From Alistipes sp. (GTDB lineage Bacteria; Bacteroidota; Bacteroidia; Bacteroidales; Rikenellaceae): a stretch of DNA of 46,133 nt. A model generated the notes under the pieces. The model worked only from the letters and a program-made list of their open reading frames with translations, had not been told where the DNA came from and made no database searches. The translations under genes and the position numbers were made by a program. The stretch lies in assembly GCA_017517705.1 (NCBI GenBank), contig JAFWYM010000033.1:1-46133 (forward strand), in the 5' to 3' direction. This document shows positions 11,942 through 30,306 of the stretch, piece by piece (position 1 is the first letter of the stretch; each line of letters opens with the position of its first letter).

Positions 11942-12015
11942 GGGGGTTTAGCTCAGCTGGTTAGAGCGCTTGCATGGCATGCAAGAGGTCGTGAGTTCGA
12001 ATCTCATATCCTCCA
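11942..12015 (+). tRNA. tRNA-Ala (anticodon GGC)
   Basis: A full cloverleaf can be drawn: acceptor GGGGGTT with ATCCTCC, D-arm GCTCAGCTGGTTAGAGC, anticodon stem CTTGC/GCAAG with loop ATGGCAT (anticodon GGC), and T-arm GTGAG-TTCGAAT-CTCAT. The third acceptor pair is G-U, the alanine identity element; pair 6-67 is a U-U mismatch. The 3' CCA is not encoded (A then CAGAT). A promoter precedes it and a strong terminator follows. Confidence 0.95.
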
Positions 12016-12023
12016 CAGATTAC

Positions 12024-29452: not shown

Positions 29453-29559
29453 GTCGAGAGCAAGGCTTTAGCCCATATAGTAGGTATTAAGGATGGATGC
29501 TTGCATACATTACCAAATACCTACTATATGAAAGATAGCGGAGCTATCTGGCTCTCGAC
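29453..29559. repeat. Cloverleaf-forming element S0
   Basis: A 107-nt sequence with a perfect 9-bp outer stem (GTCGAGAGC 29453-29461, GCTCTCGAC 29551-29559). It encloses a small hairpin (GGC-TTTA-GCC, 29464-29473), a perfect 14-bp stem (ATATAGTAGGTATT 29475-29488 with 29516-29529, 27-nt loop) and a perfect 7-bp hairpin (AGATAGC-GGA-GCTATCT, 29533-29549). It is followed at once by ACAAAAAAA and the first tRNA-Leu core copy. The same architecture with unrelated sequence recurs at 29749-29853 and 30067-30171. Confidence 0.65.
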
Positions 29560-29566
29560 AAAAAAA

Positions 29567-29884
29567 GGAGCAGCCAACAGCTACTCCCAAAGTACTCGGA
29601 GCCGGGGTCGAAGCGCCGCGACTGAAAGTCGCAAGCTGGCGCGGATACCACAAAATAGAGGCGCAGACCGCAAGGTCGAGCAATAAACTATAACCCTATC
29701 CGCGCAACCGCCATCAAGTGAGCACCGCGGCAGAGTTGACATTCTTGAGTTGGCGAGATTGCCGAAGGCAAGCACATGTGAGATTATACTATTGTGGGCT
29801 TGCACACATATAATATTAATCGCACATGTGCAAGAACATCGTTCCTCGCCAACACCATCTACCATCCACCATCCACAAAAAAAA
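29567..29884 (-). repeat. Tandem repeat unit 1 at tRNA-Leu (318 bp)
   Basis: This unit begins with a 46-bp core (29567-29612) identical or nearly so to the tRNA-Leu terminator plus the last 20 bp of tRNA-Leu (30195-30240). It then continues with about 265 bp of unique non-coding sequence rich in stems: GCGACT-GAA-AGTCGC (29618-29632), GCGCGGATA/TATCCGCGC (29639-29647/29697-29705) enclosing GACC-GCAA-GGTC, and a cloverleaf at 29749-29853. It differs from unit 2 by about four substitutions and an 8-bp length change in a CCATCCA/A-tract. No gene is credible inside. Confidence 0.9.
29749..29853. repeat. Cloverleaf-forming element S1 within repeat unit 1
   Basis: A 105-nt sequence with a 9-bp outer stem (GTTGGCGAG/CTCGCCAAC). 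It encloses TTGCC-GAA-GGCAA, a 15-bp stem (GCACATGTGAGATTA, 29772-29786, with 29817-29831, one mismatch here but perfect in unit 2) and GAAC-ATC-GTTC. The order and sizes of the stems match S0, but the sequences do not. Confidence 0.6.
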
Positions 29885-30194
29885 GGAGCAGCCAACGGCT
29901 ACTCCCAAAGTACTCGGAGCCGGGGTCGAAGCGCCGCGACTGAAAGTCGCAAGCTGGCGCGGATACCACAAAATAGAGGCGCAGACCGTAAGGTCGAGCA
30001 ATAAACTATAACCCTATCCGCGCAACCGCCATCAAGTGAGCACCGCGGCAGAGTTGACATTCCTGAGTTGGCGAGATTGCCGAAGGCAAGCACATGTGAG
30101 ATTATACTATTGTGGGCTTGCACACATATAATATTAATCTCACATGTGCAAGAACATCGTTCCTCGCCAACACCATCTACCATCCACAAAAAAA
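29885..30194 (-). repeat. Tandem repeat unit 2 at tRNA-Leu (310 bp)
   Basis: Second copy of the unit, about 98-99% identical to unit 1. It begins with the 46-bp core at 29885-29930 and ends in an A-tract just before the third core, which belongs to the intact tRNA-Leu. The inner tetraloop is GTAA where unit 1 has GCAA; both are GNRA. The 15-bp cloverleaf stem is perfect here. Confidence 0.9.
30067..30171. repeat. Cloverleaf-forming element S2 within repeat unit 2
   Basis: The same structure as S1, offset by 318 bp. The long stem (30090-30104 with 30135-30149) is fully paired, because the base that mismatches in S1 is T here instead of G. Confidence 0.6.
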
Positions 30195-30215
30195 GGAGCA
30201 GCCAACGGCTACTCC
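30188..30215 (-). terminator. Terminator of tRNA-Leu
   Basis: On the minus strand, GGAGTAGCC-GTT-GGCTGCTCC followed by a run of seven T. It is 5 bp after the tRNA 3' end. Copies of this terminator are part of the two upstream-lying core repeats. Confidence 0.9.
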
Positions 30216-30220
30216 CACAG

Positions 30221-30306
30221 TACTCGGAGCCGGGGTCGAACCGGCACGGGCATTACTGCCCACAGGATTTTAAGTCCGGCGTGTCTACCTATTCCACCAT
30301 CCGAGC
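30221..30306 (-). tRNA. tRNA-Leu (anticodon UAA)
   Basis: An 86-nt tRNA with a long variable arm. Acceptor GCTCGGA pairs with TCCGAGT. The anticodon stem-loop is GGACTTAAAATCC with anticodon TAA, the variable arm is TGGGCAGTAATGCCCG, and the T-arm is GCCGG-TTCGACC-CCGGC. The discriminator base is A. The 3' CCA is not encoded. Its last 20 bp plus terminator recur twice downstream as the core of the tandem units. Confidence 0.95.

Follow-up and report, generated by a model that had tools for sequence, protein, structure and literature searches.

Cloverleaf-bearing repeats behind a tRNA-Leu gene of Alistipes look like an apparently undescribed kind of small, nearly gene-free mobile cassette

Several described systems resemble the array reported here. 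Integrons, and the attC arrays without an integrase known as CALINs, share with it tandem cassettes that end in an imperfect, covarying, foldable site, a module order that varies between relatives and, perhaps, occasional gene cargo; the R' and R'' boxes of integron attC sites read GTTRRRY and RYYYAAC. In elements that target tRNA genes (ICEs, IMEs, satellites and tycheposons), a copy of the tRNA 3' end on the far side likewise restores the gene, and units accrete in tandem. REP/BIME elements with their RAYT and IS200/IS605 elements with a Y1 transposase are also short, palindromic and intergenic, and are recognised as a folded single strand, while MITEs are also short, non-coding and foldback, and are presumably moved in trans. 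Here we describe a region within a 46,133-nt stretch of Alistipes sp. DNA (the window, meaning that whole stretch), in which three cloverleaves, S0, S1 and S2, are the hearts of small, nearly gene-free units behind tRNA genes of gut bacteria; these units look like an apparently undescribed mobile cassette kind.

The region reads on the minus strand. The host gene, tRNA-Leu(taa) (30220..30306, called by ARAGORN and by Rfam as a tRNA), ends in a 21-nt segment, TTCGACCCCGGCTCCGAGTAC (30220-30240; our repeat family D2), which is repeated further on. Unit 1, 310 nt long, runs from the TTC of the tRNA T-loop to the end of a small hairpin (29931..30240), and comprises the tRNA 3' end, the intrinsic terminator of tRNA-Leu (30194..30216), the S2 cloverleaf (30067..30171), a spacer holding a degenerate inverted copy of the tRNA 3' end (30028..30066), a conserved covarying domain made of GGTT, a 9-bp stem and an inner hairpin (29957..30027; 84.2 bits with our model R1) and the small hairpin (29931..29956), immediately ahead of the first copy of the tRNA-Leu 3' end, again TTCGACCCCGGCTCCGAGTAC (29910..29930). 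The last bases of this spacer together with the first GG of the domain match read GGCGG, to be compared with GCCGG on the 5' strand of the host T-stem. The same series then recurs in unit 2 (29613..29930, 318 nt), with a second terminator copy (29884..29906), the S1 cloverleaf (29749..29853), a spacer with a degenerate inverted copy of the tRNA 3' end (29710..29748), a second covarying domain (29639..29709; R1, 83.2 bits) and a small hairpin (29613..29638). A second copy of the 3' end (29592..29612) and a third terminator copy (29566..29588) lead to S0 (29453..29559), which has no domain and adjoins the end of the open reading frame that we take to be ispF; the name miaA used below is likewise our assumption. 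The general plan is thus tRNA 3' end, terminator, cloverleaf, inverted 3'-end copy, 'TT', covarying domain, small hairpin and next 3'-end copy, with the cloverleaf in the middle of each full unit. The two repeats are 99% identical over 300 nt and may be a plain tandem duplication, and we read S0 as the putative remnant of a third unit of another sequence type.

An initial annotation of this DNA had described each cloverleaf as followed by an A-tract that starts a repeated 'tRNA-Leu core'. That description had to be replaced: read on the minus strand, the tract proves to be the T-run belonging to the tRNA-Leu terminator (30216-30194) and to its copies, and the repeated core is not a tRNA and consists of the 21-nt 3' end (TTCGA...GTAC) plus other sequence. 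A tRNA or pseudo-tRNA reading of the repeats was rejected, since in this region ARAGORN finds one tRNA only, at 30306-30220 on the minus strand, and Rfam agrees. The 71-nt covarying domain, present in both full units and absent from that annotation, is the best conserved part of the family. The window's other tRNA gene, Ala(ggc) at 11942-12016, has no R1 match beside it; an Ala(ggc) unit exists in another genome (locus L045).

The cloverleaves themselves were described correctly. Each has a 9-bp outer stem, a 5' hairpin, a 15-bp central stem (with one mismatch in S1) and a 3' hairpin. Their RNA minimum free energies range from -44.5 to -51.0 kcal/mol (z -6.6 to -8.9, on either strand), and in all six folds none of 200 dinucleotide shuffles was as good. 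S1 and S2 differ by one base, which is paired in S2 and unpaired in S1. S0 and S1, which were said to have a fold and no sequence in common, indeed share no 8-mer and a single 7-mer, TGCAAGC on the minus strand. Taken alone this match is at chance level (at least 7 nt in common in 855 of 2000 shuffles); it lies in the central-stem loop region of S0 and S1, as it does in the central-stem loop of S2, and 86 of 110 unit spacers contain GCAAGC, whereas 20 shuffles gave 2.9 on average and never more than 10.

The further claim that structure is kept while sequence diverges was borne out in other genomes, and the two outcomes that would have counted against the annotation, shuffles folding equally well and a lack of covarying homologues, were looked for and did not occur. 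Thirteen S1-type cloverleaves, S1 and S2 among them, retain the fold, with 94.5% of cells paired, 12 of 35 pairs changed on both sides, and a covariation score of 0.260 compared with 0.108 in shuffles and at most 0.084 when partners were slid. A second measure, of further pair types, did not exceed shuffles (256 of 500 reached the observed value). The thirteen were picked by a regular expression that specified the outer stem and a GCAAG motif, so that outer stem and loop were not free to vary, and the outer stem shows no covariation in this set chosen by that very stem; the expression gave 18 rows, five of which were excluded (two plus-strand readings, L055, L067 and L186). Moreover, at the same tRNA-Leu/ispF locus in another genome (L107), a 96% relative of S0 occupies the centre of the first unit, the position of S1 and S2 in the window, with a cut S1-type cloverleaf behind it. 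As the window has S1-type, S1-type and then S0, module order is reversed between the two, despite near-identical terminator, spacer and domain. Judged from these sequences, cloverleaf modules of one shape and different sequence appear to substitute for each other. The foldback arm ends in a cloverleaf in some units, as in the window, and in a plain hairpin in others (eight folds).

The part made up of spacer and domain also matches two further contig ends of the window's genome, one of them behind a tRNA-Thr gene. A pattern scan of genomes recovered 42 stretches, 41 from metagenome assemblies of Alistipes sp. or Rikenellaceae and one labelled 'Clostridia' (a 4,859-base contig). An alignment of 48 domains shows the 9-bp stem in three main sequence forms, together with the inner hairpin. 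Seven of 16 pairs have changed on both sides and 98.8% of cells pair, falling to 27-44% when partners are slid by one to three columns; the paired percentage and the conserved columns of R1 are biased upward, because R1 was built from sequences preselected for part of the conserved pattern, for GGTTG and for complementarity at 7 or more of the 9 stem bases (the truncated row L011 was excluded). An attC reading of the domain was rejected on inspection by eye of the same alignment, in which only one stem type has a sequence, GTTGAGC, that agrees with GTTRRRY, while GTTGCGC and GTTGCGG fail to fit and no partner box was seen. The domain was found in 78 of 151 genomes of the genus, in 30 of 150 genomes of a family sample (3 of 22 genera) and, under strict filters, in 1 of 393 genomes of an order sample, which is the window's own. 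In these large searches the filters were stricter and only a few candidates were scored in each genome, and the tallies count the window's own genome and incomplete genomes; the genomes with matches among the 42 loci are metagenome assemblies, and the further genomes are mostly incomplete. Variants of the domain were also seen: close tandem copies within one unit, with no intervening unit sequence, at L188 (up to three), L183, L165, L168 and L197; about 130 nt inserted within the domain loop, with the stem intact, on the minus strand of L055 (about 650-790); and, at L204-L209 in other genomes of the genus, a short domain without the inner hairpin (stem plus TTTATT loop).

The domain is closely associated with tRNA genes. 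Across the 42 loci, 42 of 47 domain places have a same-strand tRNA upstream, 41 within 600 nt and one (L063) at 1783 nt. The five others comprise four near contig ends (L056, two in L066, and L071) and one behind the 3' end of tmRNA (L073, read by eye and then labelled tmRNA in the first-unit analysis). At 25 of the 47 places the domain is followed by at least 19 of 22 nt of the upstream tRNA's own 3' end. When distinct domain rows from all loci were pooled, the host tRNA's own 3' end stood behind 81 of 163 (at most 4 mismatches), another 13 matched some tRNA 3' end with no host found in the stretch, and 69 had no recognised tRNA 3' end behind them. Some of these 69 are last units, with only about TTCGANTCC left before unrelated DNA (for example at Met loci), and others are cut by contig ends, decayed or had their start missed by the search patterns.

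The 110 first units span 23 tRNA labels plus tmRNA; they were collected through domain matches, so that domain-free sites are under-sampled. The domain is placed between 'TT' and a further 'TTCGA', which often starts another 3'-end copy, and the tRNA itself is whole. The 5 nt ahead of the domain's TT match the host T-stem at 4.18 of 5 positions on average, compared with 3.08 when shuffled (maximum 3.30; none of 2000 shuffles reached the observed value). Within the last 75 nt of the spacer lies an inverted copy of the 3' end of the host, and in 98 of 110 units its score exceeds the mean obtained with other tRNAs. In addition, when 41 units (at most two per tRNA kind) were folded as single-stranded DNA, all 41 beat the mean of their own 20 shuffles, with a median z of -6.9 and a worst of -3.6. 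The unit can thus be described as folding back on the gene that hosts it.

Direct repeats of the tRNA 3' end and occupied and empty sites, as in tRNA-targeted integrative elements, are both present. Alleles one unit apart were found cleanly at two tRNA loci, Pro(ggg) (L126 occupied, L188 and L198 empty) and Leu(taa) (L144 occupied, L138 empty). In both, the flank that follows the last 3'-end copy in the occupied allele directly abuts the tRNA in the empty one, and the terminator inside the unit differs from the one outside it; the L144 unit has a different hairpin where the usual domain would stand. A Pro(cgg) pair (L050 and L060) is less clean, as junction-adjacent sequence differs too. Among 30 loci retrieved by way of MiaA, 20 have tRNA-Leu(taa), with the domain behind it in 4 of the 20, the window included; the others comprise the L144 variant unit and loci with no full unit, L157 being cut at the tRNA end. 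At tRNA-Pro(ggg) in L188 and L198, the domain-free sites still have the tRNA 3' flank and terminator as a long inverted repeat, and so represent solo foldback arms; in L198 GCTTGC lies near the centre.

The edge of the repeat is sharp. Similarity extends at most 1 nt to the left of the T-loop TTC in 102 of 104 rows, counting only rows in which 10 nt matched the host T-loop sequence with no more than 2 mismatches, and with the TTC of L013 misplaced. To the right it extends 9-12 nt in 26 rows, 21-23 nt in 29 and other lengths in 49. For the 21-nt class a 21-nt duplication and a block of identity look alike, as T-loop and tRNA end are almost always the same distance apart, and the 9-12-nt class argues against a fixed 21-nt target-site duplication. 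Exchange between hosts was seen at L205, where Lys and Gln loci end in each other's 3' ends. Domain identity, compared for the 66 of 110 units that carried a genome label, is 0.76 when the same tRNA is compared across genomes, 0.73 between different tRNAs of one genome and 0.72 in unrelated pairs; label shuffling produced a same-genome excess as large as this small one in 4 of 500 trials. Since identity is highest for the same tRNA, the units would mostly be lineages tied to one tRNA, with limited exchange, and hopping between tRNA kinds appears from these sequences to be rare.

The initial annotation had left open whether selection acts on a folded RNA or on DNA cruciforms. The DNA side of this proposal is favoured by the position of the cloverleaf beyond the tRNA terminator and by a scarcity of G-U pairs in the domain stem (4 in 955 pairs), compared with 56 in 660 in the acceptor stems and 38 in 450 in the T-stems of tRNAs at the same loci. 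This strong contrast is confined to the domain stem, because the G-U share in minimum free energy folds of 54 spacers (0.078) is near that of tRNA (0.108; shuffles 0.162). Selection on DNA shape and correction of palindromes by template switching both fit the scarcity, and RNA fits it poorly. A search of the window region against Rfam returned the tRNA alone at gathering score, with two sub-threshold matches (E 0.82 and 0.89).

We then considered which enzyme might act on such units. The initial annotation had suggested a recombinase or transposase substrate; a recombinase is plausible given insertion at the T-loop edge, while no dedicated recombinase or transposase was found. Enzyme families were searched in 20 genomes, 11 with arrays and 9 without a domain match. 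Tyrosine recombinases (PF00589) occur in 20 of 20, with and without arrays, and are the only class tested that occurs in all array-bearing genomes. Reverse transcriptase (PF00078) was found in 8 of 20, with none in the window's genome or in array-bearing G000, G059, G113, G124, G131, G038 and G051; serine recombinase of the resolvase/invertase type (PF00239) in 7 of 20, with none in the window's genome or in array-bearing G000, G059, G113, G124, G132, G131, G175, G038 and G051; and Y1 (HUH) transposase (PF01797) in 0 of 20, with 5 of 14 control genomes positive. These absences rule out a retroelement, a Y1 transposase or a serine recombinase as an enzyme resident in every array-bearing genome. 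In the case of G040 (11 domain matches, 98% complete), there are just two tyrosine recombinases, one XerC-like and one XerD-like. The best models for all four recombinases classified (two from G040, and one each from G000 and G051) are XerC or XerD, and the integron-specific models TIGR02249 and NF011946 fell far under cut-off for these four; the broad model NF040815 (XerA-type, 'site-specific tyrosine recombinase/integron integrase') passes its cut-off for the three XerD-like proteins among them. Candidates therefore include the Xer proteins, another kind of enzyme, or one that comes and goes. The units in the window (310 and 318 nt) are too short to encode an integrase of their own, and none was recognised among open reading frames at nine array loci, six proteins of which were put to Pfam. 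A carrier phage, virus or plasmid was rejected after searches of viral contigs with the domain patterns, of phages with the domain and of plasmids with a unit gave no match. Tyrosine recombinase matches also lie about 1-1.5 kb from tRNA-Leu(cag) arrays (L116, L123, L179, G059:C29, G113:C15 and G131:C146); the one classified in this group, at L116, is XerC-like, and the arrangement probably reflects old gene order.

Set against the systems described at the outset, the array differs from each. Unlike integron cassettes, the units are anchored on a tRNA T-arm and not on attI, the first unit holds the tRNA 3' end and terminator, the junction is TTCGA and not GTTRRRY, most units are gene-free, and no integron-specific integrase model passes in G040. 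Known tRNA-targeted elements differ in that the units here are mostly about 240-340 nt and non-coding, share a single domain among many tRNA kinds, contain the tRNA 3' end in inverted copy and have their edge at the T-loop. The REP and IS200/IS605 comparison fails on the lack of a Y1 match in the 20 genomes and on the tight linkage of units to tRNAs, and, in contrast to MITEs, the units are site-specific and flanked by the repeated tRNA 3' end, or by the first 9-12 nt of it, and not by a short random target duplication. A literature search with narrow sets of terms found no tRNA-foldback cassettes, which lends weak support to their absence from print. We regard them as apparently new in category because no family tested has these features and because they were not found in RNA, phage, plasmid, viral and paper collections.

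Taken together, these data lead us to favour, at a probability of roughly 0.58, the reading that the array consists of small palindromic DNA cassettes inserted in the tRNA T-arm, much like integron cassettes; that they move is what we infer from comparing genomes. We count for it the association with hosts, host-specific ends, occupied and empty sites, the sharp edge, module order, the Lys/Gln exchange, genes inside arrays, the G-U scarcity of the domain stem and the DNA folds, and against it the 69 of 163 rows without a 3' end, rare hopping, cargo at few loci, the lack of a carrier match, Xer-type recombinases in array-free genomes too and the lack of a dedicated enzyme. The substrate of a recombinase would be the unit in the form of a folded single strand or a cruciform; the enzyme would recognise the conserved domain, perhaps together with the TGCAAGC loop, and cross over at the TTCGANTCC of the T-loop. 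Because nearly all tRNAs, and tmRNA, have this T-loop sequence, insertion at many sites would be explained. In the first position only inserts with a matching tRNA 3' end would survive, later positions may carry genes, and the cloverleaf would be a structural part of the recombination substrate, kept by shape. More tentatively, and with doubt, tRNA genes might be platforms of integron-like cassettes, at which a host Xer-type or undescribed enzyme joins folded single-stranded units at TTCGANTCC, the first always a 'tRNA repair' and later ones able to carry genes.

The units might instead not be mobile at all, having arisen through in-place tandem duplication of the tRNA 3' flank and template switching, which would copy the flank back as a palindrome and keep palindromes perfect, with homologous recombination spreading or levelling the domain. 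This fits the 99% identity of the window's two repeats, the tRNA-specific flanks (spacer identity 0.60 between genomes for one and the same tRNA, compared with 0.51) and, through palindrome correction, the lack of G-U pairs; the Lys/Gln swap could be homologous recombination in the common domain, and empty alleles can also be explained by deletion between repeats. We nevertheless consider it rather unlikely, given one conserved domain in the same placement behind 23 tRNA kinds and tmRNA, the sharp T-loop edge, the conserved loop motif, and the presence or absence of single units whose inside terminator differs from the outside one (L126 against L188 and L198, L144 against L138). The strong RNA folds and their covariation would suit a structured RNA family encoded behind tRNA genes and selected as RNA. 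An RNA gene was rejected as the leading idea, and is improbable, as both strands fold equally well, G-U pairs are nearly absent from the domain stem (though whole spacers come close to tRNA in this respect), each cloverleaf in the window has a terminator ahead of it, Rfam matches at gathering scores are limited to the tRNA itself, and presence at the same tRNA varies between genomes. There is as little to be expected of a derivation from larger tRNA-targeted integrative elements, of which the units would be decayed ends or satellites, moved by an integrase that most of these genomes do not themselves hold: elements of this sort are classically marked by direct repeats of the tRNA 3' end, and several genomes hold tyrosine recombinases beyond two, but one domain is common to 23 tRNA kinds, viral contigs, phages and plasmids gave no match, and the nine array loci yielded no recognised integrase.

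The cloverleaves thus belong to a larger set of foldback cassettes at the T-arms of tRNA genes, which we have seen so far in three genera, all from one family. If the cassette reading is right, there would be a second cassette platform beside integrons, sited in one of biology's most conserved loops, in which a foldback copy of the host gene repairs the damage of insertion, a single short DNA signal is able to exploit nearly any tRNA gene, and shape, not sequence, can be the conserved trait.

Gene cargo was found at two loci, with two weaker cases; most units are gene-free. At L192 a GIY-YIG open reading frame (PF01541) lies between the tRNA and the first domain, and an 81-aa frame without a family between the first and second domains; at L212 a DUF4932 frame lies between the first domain and further copies, which were read by eye. 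The weaker cases are a CAT-family frame between two Lys 3'-end copies at L187 and two lipoprotein-like frames ahead of a distant Ser 3'-end copy at L178. The L187 acyltransferase is only possible cargo, because relatives of about 56% identity occur near tRNA-His in other genomes. Finally, a second intergenic repeat (TTTACAATCC...AAACC...) was seen at L030:1646-1725 and near units in L038, L044, L069, L168 and L192; at Met loci it often follows the last domain at a distance of about 29 nt, it is also found at Leu(tag) loci, and it may be a non-coding cassette filling.
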